Assembly (NCBI GenBank): GCA_001829315.1
Contig: MIAY01000028.1
Location: forward strand, 1-64,000
Length of the DNA: 64,000 nt
DNA from: Spirochaetes bacterium GWE1_32_154
GTDB taxonomy: Bacteria > Spirochaetota > GWE2-31-10
Direction: 5' to 3'
Position 1 is the stretch's first letter. Each line of letters begins with the position of its first letter. Positions 2,298 through 40,283 of the stretch are shown in pieces. A program made the translations under genes and the position numbers. The notes beneath the pieces are model-generated. The model saw only the letters and a list, made by a program, of their open reading frames with translations, searched no databases and was not told where the DNA came from.

Positions 2298-5200
2298 ATG
2301 CAATTTCATAAAAAATGGTTTTTTGAGCAATTAGTAATTTTTTGTATATTAGTAGTAATCTCGGTATTCGTTTATAGTATGGCAAGGCGAAATATATATG
2401 AAAATAAGGTTATGGCCGCTACCTATTCTATGGATTTATATAATAATTTAATGAATGAACGGTTTCAAATTGTTATCGAAGATTTATATTATTTAGCATT
2501 TCAGTCCGCCAGTTATTCGGCAATTGATAATGGACTAATCTTTATTGATAAAATGTATAAAGCATTTGTGAAAAGAAAAGGTATTTATAACTCAATAACA
2601 TTGATAAATACAAATGGTCAAATTATTGCAGATTCATCAAAAATAAGTGAAAAAAGAAATATTGATGTTACAATTGTATCAATATTATCCACATTACCGG
2701 ATAGACATGTACTTATTACATCTGAAAGATTAAATAATGAATCCGGTGTACCGGTAATTGATTTTTATATACCTGTTTTTACTGTGGATAATAGTAGATA
2801 CGGGTATATAAAAATGGAATTTAAATTTGAGTATATGATAAAATTGCTGGATGAAAATAATCATCAAATGGAATTTATACTGGGAATAACTAACCGGGAA
2901 GGGTTTTGGTTATCTCATATTGATGAAAAAGAGAAATTCGGCTTTGCTGATGATAGCAGGAAAAAATATAATATTGCGATAGAATATCCTGATTTATGGC
3001 AATCTATTTATCGTTCTGCAACAGGACGGGTTGTATGCCCGAAAGGTATATTACTACATGTTCCTGTGAAACCATTTAACACTAATGATCAAATATTATT
3101 ACCTAATCATGTGCAGTTAAATATACAATACTTATCAACTAATAATAATTATTGGAATTTAATTTCATATATTTCAAATAAATCGATATCTTATTCGTTA
3201 CATCCAACCTTGTTCTCAATTTTGTTAATGGATTTAATTATTTTTTCATTATTAAATTTAATTATCTATATTAATAATACTTTATTAAAGAAAAAAGAAA
3301 TCGTTGAAAGAAAACTAAATGATACGATGGAAAAATATAAAGAACTTCTTGATACTATTGCTAATCCGGTAATTTTATTTGATAAATCATTTGCCATTCT
3401 CTATTGTAATAAAAATTTTCTTGATTTATTAGGCATAAGTAAAGATAAAGTAATCAATCATAAAATTAGTGAGTTTGTTCTGGATGTTTCAAATTTAAAA
3501 TTATTGCAGGAAAAAAATGATGTTGAGGTCGTTTTAAAAGACGTCATTGGAAATTATATTTATACAATTTTTTCTACAACAATATTAAATGATGGCAACT
3601 CGGAATATTCCGGAGCTTTTTGTTTAATCAATGATATAACTTTATTAAAAAAAGAACGTGAACGACTTGTTGAGGAAACGTACATTTTTGAAAATAATCC
3701 CGGGTTAGTATTCTGGAGTGATTGTTATGGGAATATAATTAAATCAAACTCCAATGGTCAGCAAATAATTGATAGAAAAAGTGGCATTAATAATGTTTTT
3801 TCAATTTTTCTTGATATTAATAAACAAAAAATGAAAGAATCAGGGTATGTATTTGAACAACTAATTAATAAGATATATTATTCTGTAAGTGTAAAATATG
3901 ATTTTTCATCCAATACATTCTTTTTTTATTGTTATGATATTTCCGGAATAAAAATAATGGAGAAGAAATTAATTGATTCTGATGTGTTAAATCGTACATT
4001 GCTTAATAATATTCCATTTGCAATGCGCATTTCAAGTGTGCAATTTGAAGAGTTATATAGAAAGGAAGGTTTGCATATTTCTATATATAATGAAACATTC
4101 TGGAATGCAATTAAACTATATGATACAGATACAAATTTTAACAACAAGTTATCACAATCTGAATTTAAAGTAGAAAATAAATATTATGAAATATTCAGAA
4201 TACCAATGATATATGATGGAATTGAATCAATTCTTGAAATAATCCAGGATATTACGGAAAGAAAAAAAAATGAAGATGAAGTTACTATTCTCTCAATCGG
4301 GGTTGAACAAAGTGCTAATTCAATCGTTATTACTGATGAAAAAGGTTCAATAATCTATGTAAATACTGCTTTTGAAAAAATTACAGGGTATTCAAAAGAA
4401 TCTGTAATTGGTCAAAATCCCAGACTACTTAAATCAGGTACGCACGACAGGGAATTTTATAAAAATTTATGGACTACAATTAAAAGCGGTAAAGTTTGGA
4501 TTGGTGAATTTCTCAATAAAAAAGCTGATAATAGTCTCTATTGGGAAAGAGCAGTTATAACACCAATTAAGGATAAAATTGGTACGGTAATTAATTTTAT
4601 TGCAGTCAAAGAAGATGTTACAAAAACAAGAGAAACTGAAGATTTACTTAAAAAAGCTAAAGATGACGCAGAAAAAGACAGCGTACTAAAAAGTGAATTT
4701 TTAGCAAATATGTCACATGAGATAAGAACTCCAATGAATGCAATAATTGGGTTTACTGATATTCTTCTTGAAGAAGAATATCAATTAGAGAAAATAGAAA
4801 AATTACATATGATCCGGAAATCAGGAAGTAATTTATTACATATTATTAATGATATATTAGATTTTTCAAAAATTGAAGCAGGAAAAGTAGTAATAAGTAG
4901 TGATAATTTTTATATTAGATATATGTGTGAATATGCAATATCATTATTTCAGAATAAAGCTACTGAAAAGAATCTTGGCTTGTTTCTTAATGTAGATCAG
5001 AATGTTCCTGAAAGTGTAAAAGGTGATGAAAGACATATAACACAGATTCTTATTAATTTATTAGGAAATGCAATTAAATTTACGAATGAAGGAACCGTAT
5101 TGTGTGTCGTATCGTATTCATATCCTAATCTTATAATTCATATTATTGATACAGGTATTGGTATTAATGAAAAAAAAATTAAAACAATTTTTAATGCTTT

Positions 5201-8572: not shown

Positions 8573-8595
8573 TATAAATCCTACTTTAAAAAATA

Positions 8596-8786
8596 AAAAA
8601 CCCGCAATGCCGTGGTTGATAGAGTATAGATTCTACCCTGGTTTACCAAGGTGGGTCTCCTCACTCTACAATCTATTAATCAAAAGCGTAAACTTAAGAC
8701 CGATATCATGCAAATTGATGTTGGAGTCCCGTAAGTGTAATATGCGGCGAATGCAATCTCCATATCACGAGCACCGCAGGCAAAAT
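8596..8786 (-). ncRNA. ssrS: 6S RNA (regulator of RNA polymerase)
   Basis: Non-coding gap of about 200 bp between zapA and prfA. On the minus strand its ends form a long closing stem: CCTGCGGTGCTCGTG (8780-8766) with CACGGCATTGCGGG (8614-8601), nearly all paired with one bulge, followed by a T-rich tail (8600-8591). Inside are an apical stem ATAGATT / AATCTAT enclosing ACCTTGG-TAAA-CCAGGGT, and an opposite GGAG...CTCC stem, leaving an open central bubble that mimics melted promoter DNA. Length and position next to zapA match 6S RNA, which is encoded beside zapA (ygfE) in many Gram-negatives. The exact ends are estimated. Confidence 0.82.
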
Positions 8787-31800: not shown

Positions 31801-31966
31801 GTCTAACTCGCGAGGCGTAATTGGCGCATAAATTGCTATTTTCAGCCAATTTTTTCGTGATTAACAAGAAATTTCCCAGTTTAACCCGAAATTAGAACCT
31901 ATAAGTACCATTTCAGCATTTTGTTTGACAATAGCCTGAGTCGGTTTGTTAAATCGGTTGTTAGCA
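31801..31966 (-). repeat. attC-like recombination site 1
   Basis: 166 bp. On the minus strand it starts with TGCTAAC (31966-31960) and ends with GTTAGAC (31807-31801), matching the integron RYYYAAC / GTTRRRY end boxes. It shares long stretches (ACCGACTC, GGCTATTGTC, TTTATGCGCCAAT, TACGCCTC) with sites at 34485 and 34896. The vapC stop codon lies inside the left box, as is usual for cassette genes. Confidence 0.6.
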
Positions 31967-32383
31967 CTCTTCTTTAAATATATTTTCAATTTTAACTTTT
32001 CCGGGTAATCGATAAACATCAAAATCTGAATCAATGCTTATTATTTTCTTAACTCCTGTTTTTTCTGCAACTAATACGAGTGTTGCATCTGCAAAATCCA
32101 TAGGTCGATCAGAATATTTCTTTGTTAATTCAATGATTCGAATAAAATCTTTTTGTTTTATTTCTTGTATAATCACACCTTCATTCATAATCCATTCAAG
32201 AAAATTGATCTGAACATTTACATTAAAATCCAGCATGTGGGTTACTTCAGTAATTACAGCTGTTGTTGATATAAATTTATAATCTTTTCCTTTAATAAAA
32301 TTTATAATTTTTTTATGATATGTATCATCTTTATCAAAAAGTGCAATTAGAGGGCCGGAATCAATAAGAATTTCTTTTAGCAT
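31961..32383 (-). CDS. VapC-type PIN-domain toxin (ribonuclease)
   Basis: 140 residues. PIN-domain acidic residues are visible: D8 in LIDSGPLIALF, the Glu in VITEVTHML, the Asp in MDFADATLV and the Asp pair in SIDSDFD. Such toxins cleave tRNA or rRNA when freed from antitoxin. It overlaps the upstream antitoxin gene by 23 bp, and its stop lies within an attC-like site, consistent with a mobile cassette. Confidence 0.9.
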   Translation of the reverse strand: MLKEILIDSGPLIALFDKDDTYHKKIINFIKGKDYKFISTTAVITEVTHMLDFNVNVQINFLEWIMNEGVIIQEIKQKDFIRIIELTKKYSDRPMDFADATLVLVAEKTGVKKIISIDSDFDVYRLPGKVKIENIFKEEC

Positions 32384-32612
32384 TGATTTTTTCCTTTAAT
32401 TTTTTTTTATATGTTGTTGATAATGAACCATCACCACTACCATATAAACCAAAAAAAGATTCTCCCAATTTATATGAATCCAGTTCTGATTCTTCTTGTG
32501 TAAAAAATACATCAAGAGCCTCTTTAATAATTTCACTTTTTGTTTTCTTTTTAAGATTTGCTAAAAAATCCAGTTTTTGTTCATAATCTATTGGTAATCT
32601 AACTGTTGTCAT
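32361..32612 (-). CDS. ribbon-helix-helix antitoxin of the VapBC pair
   Basis: 83 residues from the ATG at 32612, preceded by CGGAG; a longer in-frame start has no site. The N-terminal MTTVRLPIDYEQKLDFLA-NLKKKTKSEIIKEALD is a CopG-type ribbon-helix-helix DNA-binding unit; the C-terminal part (about 50-83) should bind and block the PIN toxin encoded by the overlapping next gene. Confidence 0.88.
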   Translation of the reverse strand: MTTVRLPIDYEQKLDFLANLKKKTKSEIIKEALDVFFTQEESELDSYKLGESFFGLYGSGDGSLSTTYKKKLKEKINAKRNSY

Positions 32613-32778
32613 ATAAATCTCCGTATTACTAACAGTAATACCATTAGGCAGAAATGTCAACTTTTTTTTGCACGAAATAATTCATAATTGAATTAATATT
32701 TGTTAATTTGAAGAGGCTCTGAAAACAAATATTATTTTATAATTCATCCCGGCGCTGGGGGTAACATAGTTACCATTT

Positions 32779-33743: not shown

Positions 33744-34475
33744 GGCTGTAGAAAAGCCCCGCTTTTAAAATCTGCCCCTTTCTGAAATCGTCTAATTTTT
33801 AACGTTTTACCTAATTTAAAGTATTAATTCAATCTGAAATTTTAAAATCAACTAGATTCAATATTCCGGTGTATGCTCAGCACCATTCAACTACGCCCGA
33901 TTTCCTAATATTTGCACCTTGCCAATATTGTGCATAATGCAATACAAAAGCTATTGAGAATTTACCTTGATTGATCCTCGTAGTGGAAAACGATTTAACT
34001 TTTTTTGCTCCGCGAAGATGTCCGAAAACAGGTACAACAGTTTCCATTCTATGAGAATAGACTTGTCGTTCATACGGCGTATCAAACCGCTCCCGCATCA
34101 TTTCGGTATAATTGCAAGAAGATGCATCTTTTCCTTTTTCCGATAAAGTTTTCCGAGTAGCAGATAGTAAGAACTTGAGTAAATATTTTTGTGATTTCAT
34201 TATCTATGGCGGAATATAATTGGTAATCGTTGTATAATGCGGTTTTAGTATCTGCTGAAAAGGTTATATGGAAAGATCAAGTTTCTCATTTATGAGCATA
34301 TTCAATGTATATTCAAAAGTATCTGGTAGTAATTGATGTTCAAGACATACCGGAAGCAGTGATTGTAGTTCGTATGAATATTCTTTAAACTTTGTCAGAT
34401 GTATCCTCGATTATTGCAAGGAAAATTATAGCAGAATTTGAGTAAATAATCAATTAATAGGGTTTTTCTACAGTT
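33744..34475 (-). mobile_element. remnant of an IS1182-like insertion sequence
   Basis: About 730 bp bounded by inverted repeats: CTGTAGAAAAGCCC (33746-33759) and, on the other strand, CTGTAGAAAAACCC (34473-34460). The inside holds the two ends of one transposase gene on the minus strand, with the centre deleted. The element sits within a repeat unit: the flank GCAGGGGCTATCGAA on its left is joined to GTTAACC...on its right, which are adjacent in the copy at 34876. No target duplication is obvious. Confidence 0.75.
33877..34395 (-). pseudogene. internally deleted IS1182-type transposase
   Basis: An N-terminal piece (about 34395-34264) reads KFKEYSYELQSLLP and later NMLINEKLDLSI, the typical start of IS1182 transposases, and stops. 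A C-terminal piece (34200-33877) contains MRERFDTPYERQVYSHRMET and VVPVFGHLRG, the conserved end of the DDE domain. Roughly 250 residues, including most catalytic acids, are missing, so it cannot transpose itself. Confidence 0.8.
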
Positions 34476-35084: not shown

Positions 35085-35669
35085 TTATATAACATTATGT
35101 AAGAAATTAAAAATATTATTTTTTGTTTTCTCATATTTAATCATTTCAGAAAAAATTTTAAATGTTAAAAAAGTATCATACTCACTTTGGTGAAGTTTAG
35201 TAGATTCGATTGATATTTCATAAAAATTTACAGTTTCAAGCAAAGTTGGCCACTTATATGTTTGATATTGTTCAATCCATTTTAATTTCAGAATATTTAT
35301 ATTTGATTTCATTGTACAAAACTGGTATTCAAGTTCAAAATCAAAAAATGACTTATCAAAATCAATATTATGAGCAACAAAATGATTGGAATCACCACAA
35401 AAAGACTTAAAACTTTCACTATCTTTTTTAAAATATAATGGGTAATTATTATTTTCTCTTAATTGAGCAATCATACTATCTTTTAAACCATTTATTTCAA
35501 TAGCTTTTCGATTTAATTTTTCTCCGGGAACTCTAAAGTAAAATCGATTAAACTTATCGATAATATATACTTCATTATAATCATTAATTTTACATTTTAG
35601 CGCTGAAAGTGACAATACAGAAGATCCTTCCATGCCATTAGTTTCTACATCAAAAATAATAATATTCAT
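35085..35669 (-). CDS. DEDDh-type 3'-5' exonuclease (DnaQ-like)
   Basis: 194 residues. Exo I: FDVETNG (D7, E9). Exo II: FVAHNIDFDKSFF (central Asp). Exo III: LHQSEYDTFLTFKIF, the H-x4-D form of the DEDDh group. It should degrade single-stranded DNA or RNA from the 3' end. Its start overlaps the SLATT gene stop by 4 bp, so it is translationally coupled in the RT-SLATT-exonuclease operon; it could trim reverse-transcribed DNA or act as effector or control. It is followed by an attC-like site. Confidence 0.88.
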   Translation of the reverse strand: MNIIIFDVETNGMEGSSVLSLSALKCKINDYNEVYIIDKFNRFYFRVPGEKLNRKAIEINGLKDSMIAQLRENNNYPLYFKKDSESFKSFCGDSNHFVAHNIDFDKSFFDFELEYQFCTMKSNINILKLKWIEQYQTYKWPTLLETVNFYEISIESTKLHQSEYDTFLTFKIFSEMIKYEKTKNNIFNFLHNVI

Positions 35670-36268
35670 GGCGTTGGTAATACATTAAAGTGTTTTAAAA
35701 GGAAATAGACAGTAAAATAAATTATTATCGGTAAAATAATCATTGAAAATTTTATTAAGAAATATAGAAATCTTAATCCAAATAACTTAACAATTCCTAT
35801 ATATGAAATATGTAAAGTATTTTTTTTGTCAATTTCATATTGAAATACTAAGAAATCATAAACATTATGATTCTCAACACTACTTAATACTGAAGAGTAA
35901 TCAGATGAAATTTTTAATATTTTATCTATATTAGATTTATCTATTGTTTTTAATTCTATATAAATTTGATCTAATTCTATATAAACATTTTTCATGCTTA
36001 AAGCTCTTTCTTTATAATTTTGGAAATTATAAAATAAAACAATAAACGTTGTTGATATTGACAATATTACTAAAGTTAAAGAATTATAATTTCCTGACTT
36101 ATATAAGTTAATAATAGATAGTATTATAAGAAAAACAGAATAATAAAAACTAAGGAATAGAAAAAACTTATTATCATTTTCTAACCTCATTGCAGTGTTT
36201 ATTCGACATTTTTTTGTTATCCAAATTTTATTAAGTAAATCTTCTTTTATTGTTATAGCATTATCCAT
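35666..36268 (-). CDS. SLATT-domain two-helix membrane protein (RT-associated type)
   Basis: 200 residues. Two adjacent transmembrane helices (about 31-51, FLFLSFYYSVFLIILSIINL, and 58-78) are followed by NYKERALSMKNVYIELDQIY, which matches the R-A-x-x-x-K-x-x-Y-I-x-L segment of the SLATT variant linked with reverse transcriptases; another hydrophobic stretch lies at about 168-192. SLATT proteins are thought to be membrane effectors that oligomerise and disrupt the membrane after a nucleic-acid or nucleotide signal. Starts 12 bp after the RT stop and overlaps the exonuclease start. Confidence 0.85.
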   Translation of the reverse strand: MDNAITIKEDLLNKIWITKKCRINTAMRLENDNKFFLFLSFYYSVFLIILSIINLYKSGNYNSLTLVILSISTTFIVLFYNFQNYKERALSMKNVYIELDQIYIELKTIDKSNIDKILKISSDYSSVLSSVENHNVYDFLVFQYEIDKKNTLHISYIGIVKLFGLRFLYFLIKFSMIILPIIIYFTVYFLLKHFNVLPTP

Positions 36269-36280
36269 TTTTACTCCCCA

Positions 36281-37630
36281 TTATGAAAACGACTGAATAT
36301 CTTTTTCTAACTCTTTTATTTTAATAAATACATATTTATCAAATAAATAATTAATATCTTTTTCCAATTTATTTTCGACATTTTTCATTCCAATAATATC
36401 AGTTAAAAATATTTTTTTTTCTTCAATTAAAAAATTATCAAAGTTGATAATGTATCTACTATTATGAAGATTTTTAGTTATTTCATTATACGCCCTAACA
36501 AACTTTTTAATTTTACAATCATTCTCTTGCAATGATATATTAAATCTTTTAGCAAAGGTATTAATTAAATTATCTAAACGAAATAATAAACTAATATCAT
36601 TTATTTGTGAAAAGTAAAATAACCAACCATATTTCTTGTTGTTTTTTATACAACCGCTAATCCTTAGATTTAATAAATACAAAAATATTTCATAAGATTT
36701 TATTTTTTTGGGATTAGTATGTATATAATCTAAAAATATTTTTTCCAAACTTCTTTCTAACTTAAGAACAGAGTTTTTTCTAACGCTTATTAATTTGTCA
36801 TTAAAAGAATACCCTAAAAAACTAAAACCTTCATTGATTGTGTTTTCAAGATGTTTTTCTGGATTTAGTTCTAATAAAAATTTATTTTCAATATTATCCT
36901 CAATACTTTCTTTAATTTTTTTCTTATTTTTATTTGATGTAAAAATAAGTATGTCATCAACATAACGAAAATAACTAATACAAGTATTAGTTTTATATAT
37001 TTTATCGAATTCTAACAAATAAATTGATGCTAAAATATTAGAGATTGGAAGTCCTTGAGGTACACCTTTTGTATTTGTAATTTTTTTATAAAGAATATCA
37101 TTTGAATTTTTTGTATCATTCCTAATAGCCTTAATAATTAAATTTAGTACACTTTTATGAATATTTAACTCAAGAATAGATATAAGCTTATGATGATTAA
37201 TTGAATCAAAAAATGTTTTAATATCATATTTTAAAATGTAATCATAATTAGATGTTTTTGATATTATGCTTATTTCATTAATCATTGAATGTGATACTGG
37301 CATATTTGCCTCAGGAAACAATGCAAGTAAATAGTCTTTTATAAGACTTAAAGTTAGTTTATCACGTAAAGTTGGTATAGAAATTATTCTAGGAAATTTA
37401 TTTTTTCCTTTAGAAATAAGTTTTTCTTTGTAAGAACTAAATTTGTAAGTCTCAGTGAAAACTCTATAAGAAATCCTTTCAATTACAGAATCCTTATCTT
37501 TATCGAAAACCCTCAAGTTCACATTATCAATACCTACAGTTGGTTTGATTTTTATTTTTTCTTCATAATGTTTATGTAAGTTTTCAACATCAAATATATC
37601 ATAAAATATTTTTTTAGAATCAACTTCCAT
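36281..37630 (-). CDS. reverse transcriptase of a defence-type (non-retron) group
   Basis: 449 residues. RT motifs: RIISIPTLRDKLTLSLI (motif 1), DYILKYDIKTFFDSINH (A, first catalytic Asp), GVPQGLPISNILASIYL (B), YFRYVDDILIF (C, Y223-V-D-D226) and FSFLGYSF (D/E). The NAxxH and VTG motifs of retron RTs are not seen, and no maturase or endonuclease domain of group II introns follows; the last ~150 residues are helical. A SLATT gene and an exonuclease gene follow in the same operon, and a structured non-coding segment lies 20 bp upstream. This combination fits the DRT (defence-associated RT) group, specifically the SLATT-linked type. Priming and product are unknown. Confidence 0.9.
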   Translation of the reverse strand: MEVDSKKIFYDIFDVENLHKHYEEKIKIKPTVGIDNVNLRVFDKDKDSVIERISYRVFTETYKFSSYKEKLISKGKNKFPRIISIPTLRDKLTLSLIKDYLLALFPEANMPVSHSMINEISIISKTSNYDYILKYDIKTFFDSINHHKLISILELNIHKSVLNLIIKAIRNDTKNSNDILYKKITNTKGVPQGLPISNILASIYLLEFDKIYKTNTCISYFRYVDDILIFTSNKNKKKIKESIEDNIENKFLLELNPEKHLENTINEGFSFLGYSFNDKLISVRKNSVLKLERSLEKIFLDYIHTNPKKIKSYEIFLYLLNLRISGCIKNNKKYGWLFYFSQINDISLLFRLDNLINTFAKRFNISLQENDCKIKKFVRAYNEITKNLHNSRYIINFDNFLIEEKKIFLTDIIGMKNVENKLEKDINYLFDKYVFIKIKELEKDIQSFS

Positions 37631-37650
37631 AGAATCCTTTTTTACATTAT

Positions 37651-37791
37651 AAATATGAAAGGTCTTATAAAACTTAGATACTATACTTTAAATAAATTAA
37701 AGTCTTTAAAAAGCAGATGCTTATTGTTTAGAACAATATTTTAGTTTTTAAAACTAAAATCACAGGATTACCTGTAAGACCTTTCATATTT
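37651..37791 (-). ncRNA. putative structured ncRNA of the reverse transcriptase system
   Basis: A 141-bp non-coding stretch bounded by a perfect 17-bp inverted repeat (AAATATGAAAGGTCTTA at 37651-37667; complement at 37775-37791). On the minus strand it also contains hairpins CAGG-TAAT-CCTG, a 10-bp stem TTTTAGTTTT / AAAACTAAAA, TTGTT / AACAA and ACTTTAA / TTAAAGT. It starts next to an extended -10 and ends 20 bp before the RT gene, like a retron msr-msd with a1/a2 ends or a DRT template RNA. The transcript itself is inferred. Confidence 0.75.
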
Positions 37792-37800
37792 ATTATATCA
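37792..37800 (-). promoter_or_regulatory. extended -10 promoter for the ncRNA/RT operon
   Basis: Minus-strand TGA-TATAAT (37800-37792). The start would lie near 37785, i.e. inside the first arm of the ncRNA repeat. There is no good -35, but TGN before TATAAT can compensate. Confidence 0.65.
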
Positions 37801-40140: not shown

Positions 40141-40191
40141 AGAGCTTCTTGCAAAAATACTCTTTTTATCTCGAATTTTTGCAAGAAGCTA
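40141..40191. repeat. dispersed ~51-bp hairpin repeat, copy 3 (best copy)
   Basis: AGCTTCTTGCAAAAAT ... ATTTTTGCAAGAAGCT: 15 of 16 positions pair, with a central CTCTTTTTATCTCGA-type loop. It lies 42 bp upstream of the nitrilase gene. Confidence 0.85.
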
Positions 40192-40206
40192 CCTTTAACG
40201 CAATAT

Positions 40207-40267
40207 AATTAAAAAATAAAATTATTATTGCAAGAGCTTCTTGTAATAATAATTTTATTTTTTAATT
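40207..40267. repeat. 29-bp near-perfect inverted repeat
   Basis: Arms 40207-40235 and 40239-40267 are complementary at 28 of 29 positions with a 3-base centre (GCT), mostly A/T. It overlaps copy 4 of the dispersed hairpin repeat and would form an extended cruciform or hairpin. Confidence 0.85.
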
Positions 40268-40283
40268 TTTGCATGAGGCTTCT
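40233..40283. repeat. dispersed ~51-bp hairpin repeat, copy 4 (diverged)
   Basis: Begins AGAGCTTCTTG and ends TTTTTGCATGAGGCTTCT, as in copy 3, but the middle is replaced by AT-rich sequence complementary to the left neighbour (see the 29-bp inverted repeat). Confidence 0.6.

Follow-up and report, generated by a model that had tools for sequence, protein, structure and literature searches.

A divergent DRT10 (UG17) locus with a predicted template RNA directly upstream of its reverse transcriptase gene

UG17 reverse transcriptases (RTs), together with a SLATT protein and an ncRNA, have been described as DRT10, in which the ncRNA templates telomerase-like tandem-repeat cDNA (PMC12632851, Tang et al. 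2025); SLATT_5 beside UG17 had been noted earlier (82%, PMC8934634). The ncRNA (137 nt in Eco3) binds the RT and carries an A-B-A' arrangement in the loop after stem-loop 5, the RT primes on a C-terminal Ser or Tyr (S456/Y444) and produces tandem-repeat DNA of great length, and defence requires RT, SLATT and ncRNA. Binding of the ncRNA to the RT was found in three E. coli DRT10 systems and the need of the ncRNA for defence in Eco3, and an evolutionary link between telomerase and DRT10 is claimed in the same paper (PMC12632851). DRT9 produces homopolymer cDNA, which is held down by ExoI (PMC12483538).

Here, we analysed a locus in a 64-kb stretch of DNA (the window), where a first-pass annotation had taken a hairpin-rich, non-coding segment just ahead of an RT gene for a possible dedicated template RNA. 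The genes of the locus are the following:

36281..37630, minus strand: UG17 (DRT10) reverse transcriptase (PADLOC RT_UG17, E 5e-141, residues 5-449; YVDD at 223-226; S449 is the last residue)
35666..36268, minus strand: SLATT_5 membrane effector protein (PF18160, E 3e-29; RTasSLATT, E 2.5e-41; NF033631 above cut-off)
35085..35669, minus strand: DEDDh 3'-5' exonuclease (PF00929, RNase_T, E 3e-6, 28.3 bits with a cut-off of 24; PADLOC DEDDh, E 7e-17)

The SLATT_5 gene starts 12 bp downstream of the RT gene and the start codon of the exonuclease overlaps the SLATT stop codon (ATGA), which gives the minus-strand order ncRNA-RT-SLATT-exonuclease in the window. With the PADLOC models, the RT scored 468 bits for RT_UG17, 138 bits for the next best model and 52 bits for Drt9. 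Its AlphaFold model has a mean pLDDT of 93.9 (70 in the last block), and its closest matches among solved structures include complexes of group II intron RT and of DRT9 RT-ncRNA. In the RT tree, the protein groups with UG17 relatives, the nearest being that of Propionispira (L084; support 95/68), and its identity to any relative found is at most 44%. All 8 residues of the C-terminus EKDIQSFS are the same in the Propionispira protein, and a C-terminal Ser or Tyr is present in 76 of the 85 relatives (Ser in 61, Tyr in 15). With DRT9 (UG28; PMC12483538) the system shares a Class 2 UG RT, a similar upstream ncRNA and the SLATT protein that DRT9 sometimes has; however, the RT scores given above speak against membership of DRT9, and so does the loop sequence (see below), which does not form a U tract like that of DRT9.

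The survey of relatives comprised 86 UG17 loci, 80 from named genomes and 6 from plasmids, and about 55 further UG17 loci were obtained from viral contigs by a search with the RT alignment; the same search with the RT sequence alone returned no UG17 loci. At the cut-offs used, no other UG17 turned up in 393 genomes from the same phylum or in 9 from the same order, so that no close relative was available for comparison of the template loop. A SLATT gene adjoins the RT in 85/86 surveyed loci. SLATT precedes the RT in 76 of 85 relatives and follows it in the other 9; the window has the second, minor order, which occurs in the region of the tree where its RT is placed. Most surveyed loci have an RNA of similar plan upstream of the operon's first gene. 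No such ncRNA was found upstream of the RT in L075, L076, L085, L086, L087 and L088, which have the RT-SLATT order and come from cyanobacteria, Pseudomonas and Propionigenium; their ncRNA may be located elsewhere or be different.

The segment before the RT gene of the window is enclosed by a perfect inverted repeat with arms at 37649-37667 and 37775-37793. Arms of 17 bp had been annotated at first, and their positions (37651-37667 and 37775-37791) are exact, but the true perfect length is 19 bp; extended with mismatches, the repeat reaches 39 bp at 79%. It is far beyond chance, as shuffling the dinucleotides of the whole window 60 times never gave a perfect inverted repeat of at least 16 bp. 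Both strands of the segment fold far better than shuffles, the minus strand with -40.9 kcal/mol (z -7.5), a value reached by none of 200 shuffles. Between the RT start (37630) and 38017, there is no ORF of at least 60 aa, and only 20 bp separate the repeat-enclosed segment from the RT start codon. The description as hairpin-rich, non-coding and directly before the RT gene therefore stands. The elements that we recognize here, given from the promoter onwards, are listed below; R3 is a covariance model and A13 an alignment of related RNAs, both described further on.

37792..37800, minus strand: extended -10 promoter element TGATATAAT (from the sequence; hexamer at 37797-37792)
37775..37793, minus strand: 5' arm of the 19-bp repeat, the inner part of which makes up the 5' strand of the closing stem (repeat search; A13 covariation)
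37657..37785, minus strand: predicted DRT10 ncRNA of about 129 nt (best R3 match in the 64-kb window; fold z -7.5)
37761..37776, minus strand: stem-loop SL1 (fold)
37738..37760, minus strand: stem-loop SL2, 10 bp (fold; covariation in A13 helix 3)
37724..37731, minus strand: single-strand motif CUAAACAA (fits the family motif [CG]UA[AU]NN[AC]A between SL2 and SL3)
37711..37722, minus strand: stem-loop SL3 (fold; A13 helix 4)
37685..37703, minus strand: last stem-loop, equivalent of SL5 or the template boundary element (fold; A13 helix 6)
37666..37684, minus strand: template loop of 19 nt, AUAGUAUCUAAGUUUUAUA (single-stranded in the fold; position as the DRT10 template loop, PMC12632851)
37649..37667, minus strand: 3' arm of the inverted repeat and closing stem (repeat search; A13 covariation)

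The pattern for the motif between SL2 and SL3 was widened post hoc from the family form CUAAUNAA and so also admits the window. In the fold, the SL5-like stem-loop (37703-37685) lies directly upstream of the open 19-nt loop, as in DRT10.

On the minus strand, TGATATAAT ends exactly 6 nt before G37785, which is the same end that was chosen by model R3, and the start of transcription (+1) of the ncRNA is predicted near this G, within the first arm. The RNA therefore probably excludes the outer AT pairs of the repeat: the outer 6 bp (AAATAT/ATATTT) lie upstream of the predicted start, and the closing stem of the RNA would consist of the inner 10-13 bp. The early proposal of an extended -10 that starts transcription inside the first arm is supported in this form, with the outer 6 bp of the arms taken out. 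The same spacing is found in the relatives. Of 51 upstream sequences, 14 have an extended -10 that precedes the closing stem by 3-8 nt, typically by about 6 nt, where 0.84 would be expected and the maximum in 1000 shuffles was 5; a plain -10 with 5/6 matches has this position in 19 of the 51 (4.2 expected). An extended -10 about 6 nt ahead of the closing stem constitutes a promoter rule that could aid the annotation of DRT10 RNAs.

Three covariance models were tried (R1, R2 and R3), and the window was reached by the third only. R1, trained on 14 gammaproteobacterial RNAs, finds the RNA in 33 of the 86 loci, every time upstream of the operon; R1 and R2 (two RNAs) both missed the RNA of the window, and most RNAs of the Bacillota-type half of the family escape R1 as well. 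R3 was trained on 4 RNAs of this half (Nitrospinia, Hatepunaea, Oceanobacillus and Sulfurimonas), and no sequence of the window was included. Its best site in the 64 kb was 37785-37657 on the minus strand, with a modest score of 25.0 bits (E 0.006; next site 13.6 bits), a composition bias of 10.7 bits and the rough E-values of a model of 4 sequences. R3 also matches L092, L072, L014, L017 and L022 and, weakly, L084, in all cases upstream of their operons. A hand-made descriptor likewise had the segment as its sole site in the 64 kb; it was set aside as evidence since it also matched 9 of 1000 shuffles and found only 13 of 87 regions.

The first-pass annotation had suggested covariation analysis of related loci as a check and had named a lack of conserved structure in them as a finding against its proposal; the opposite was seen, namely a covarying upstream RNA with strong compensatory changes. 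In the RNAs of the relatives, 205 cells are changed on both sides of a pair, versus 61 when shuffled. In alignment A13, which holds ten RNAs including that of the window and, being model-aligned and fitted to the structure, favours it, the corresponding numbers are 105 versus 34, and none of 500 shuffles was as high. Changes on both sides occur in 29 of the 31 pairs, among them all 10 pairs of the closing stem, and 93% of the cells pair. Aligning the RNAs with plain MAFFT did not give structure-consistent results. The DRT10 ncRNA is thereby extended to a divergent, AT-rich lineage missed by the gammaproteobacterial model, and R3 is provided as a model for it.

The locus therefore has a UG17-clade RT with a C-terminal Ser, an adjacent SLATT gene and a homologous structured ncRNA upstream. 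The UG17 RT, the SLATT partner, the covarying upstream RNA and the match of R3, which was blind to the window and returned the predicted ends, support a dedicated template RNA, as had been claimed, by homology to DRT10. In our view, the segment very probably encodes the ncRNA of a DRT10 (UG17) anti-phage operon, and this RNA would template repeat cDNA. DRT10 is a known kind of system, of which the window copy is a divergent member. In common with Eco1, Eco2 and Eco3, it has a UG17 RT that is about 450 aa long, contains YVDD and ends in Ser, a SLATT_5 partner and an upstream ncRNA built of a closing stem, small stem-loops and, following the last of these, an open template loop. It differs in its order (ncRNA-RT-SLATT instead of ncRNA-SLATT-RT), in an AT-rich ncRNA that apparently has no SL4 and goes undetected with the gammaproteobacterial RNA model, and in the DEDDh exonuclease gene overlapping SLATT. 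By analogy with DRT10, the RNA also resembles that of telomerase in its short template with an alignment segment and a boundary stem-loop, whereas DRT10 has no role at chromosome ends, is protein-primed and uses a compact RT in place of TERT.

From the homology of structure, promoter and genes, we infer transcription, cDNA synthesis and defence by the following route. The UG17 RT would bind the ncRNA, prime DNA synthesis on S449, the serine at its own C-terminus, and copy a short unit of the template loop, up to the last stem-loop; it would then slip back onto the repeated A' sequence and copy again. The product would be a long tandem-repeat single-stranded DNA, which, jointly with the SLATT membrane protein, may act in defence against phages, and the co-encoded DEDDh exonuclease may hold the repeat DNA in check. 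Two candidate units were recognized in the loop:

37678..37686, minus strand: candidate A-B-A' no. 1, GUAU-A-GUAU (5-nt unit; cDNA repeat TATAC/CTATA)
37664..37676, minus strand: candidate A-B-A' no. 2, UAAG-UUUUA-UAAG (9-nt unit; cDNA repeat TAAAACTTA)

Candidate no. 1 sits right after the last stem-loop, while the A' of no. 2, at its 3' end, extends into the closing stem; these units give concrete predictions of the cDNA repeat, probably TATAC/CTATA or else TAAAACTTA. A third register, AGU-AUCUA-AGU (period 8), is weaker, so that three registers compete. As a 4-nt repeat is present in 64% of shuffled window loops, periods 5 and 9 in this AT-rich loop are not beyond chance, and A-B-A' was rejected as proof of function here. 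Over 18 loops of the family, the mean longest A is 4.44 versus 3.58 +- 0.21 by chance. Period 5 occurs in 7 of the 11 nearest RNAs (3.2 expected; p 0.017 before correction, with nine periods tried), and period 9 is less enriched. Since period 5 is the commonest in relatives of the same (Bacillota-type) half, we favour this unit, with low confidence.

Retrons also have a non-coding RNA with complementary ends beside the RT, and the first-pass annotation had likened the segment to msr-msd. The resemblance is confined to the layout, with an inverted repeat, which would correspond to a1/a2, surrounding hairpins directly before the RT gene; but the expected template is a short loop that is copied many times over, not an msd that gives rise to branched msDNA. 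The class of the RT, the family of the RNA and the predicted product all differ from those of retrons. By a wide margin, the RT belongs to UG17, the sole NCBIfam retron model that matches it (St85) gives 60 bits with a cut-off of 235, no Rfam retron RNA family matches, and the RNA aligns with those of UG17 relatives instead. A retron-like element is thus most improbable. We give equally little credit to a chance or DNA-level feature, such as the inverted repeat of a mobile element or a cruciform: the region is AT-rich and has two further AT-rich hairpins at 40143-40267, but the shuffled windows, the fold and the covariation with UG17 relatives speak against it.

A somewhat better case, although still an improbable one, can be made for a cis-acting 5' UTR element of the RT mRNA (an attenuator or autoregulatory hairpin) with no separate template RNA. 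With 20 bp to the RT start and no clear terminator between, read-through into the RT mRNA is likely, and SL1 followed by a U-rich sequence scores as terminator-like. Against this, SLATT comes first in most relatives, so that there the RNA precedes SLATT and not the RT, and the E. coli DRT10 RNA binds the RT in three systems and is needed for Eco3 defence (PMC12632851). A leader role could coexist with the favoured role as DRT10 template.

The exonuclease, in which the expected D-E, D and H-x4-D positions are present by eye, is a possible accessory gene of the operon. In E. coli carrying UG17, sbcB (ExoI) is reported to be essential (PMC12483538), and ExoI is reported to digest DRT10 cDNA (PMC12632851). 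The ExoI C-terminal domain PF08411 was not found in the genome of the window (97.6% complete); this absence is usual, since of 14 control genomes only E. coli has the domain. The exonuclease might be a built-in brake that replaces ExoI by digesting or trimming the 3' end of the cDNA; the system would then be set free once the nuclease is blocked or overloaded by a phage. Such a brake is plausible, but we hold it to be rather unlikely; it is based on one overlapping gene pair. If true, it would make the system safe in a host that lacks ExoI, and an exonuclease that is part of the system would offer a handle on the control of the repeat DNA and its action with SLATT. Among the surveyed UG17 loci, a DEDDh gene is nearby only on the viral contig L092, where it belongs to a different subfamily (24% identity), and the closest plasmid relatives of the exonuclease are in unrelated neighbourhoods. 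The L092 gene (2493-3134) lies just before an R3-positive ncRNA (3186-3321), and the UG17 RT of this contig is 43% identical.

Downstream of the operon on the minus strand, a transposase remnant (33877-34200) and two small adjoining genes that look like an antitoxin with a PIN-domain toxin (31961-32660) were recognized by eye; NCBIfam gave no family match above cut-off for these genes. The AT-rich inverted repeats of 16 and 23 bp at 40143-40281 (40143-40190 and 40207-40267) are intergenic, have the word GCTTCTTG in common and are possibly terminators or small repeat elements. The same genome carries a second RT (L002, G000:C42:16382-17542), which contains one in-frame TAG and probably belongs to the group II intron type. 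A scan with Rfam gave no match at the locus; the single match of the window at gathering score is a 6S RNA at 8595-8785 on the minus strand (RF00013, 58 bits).
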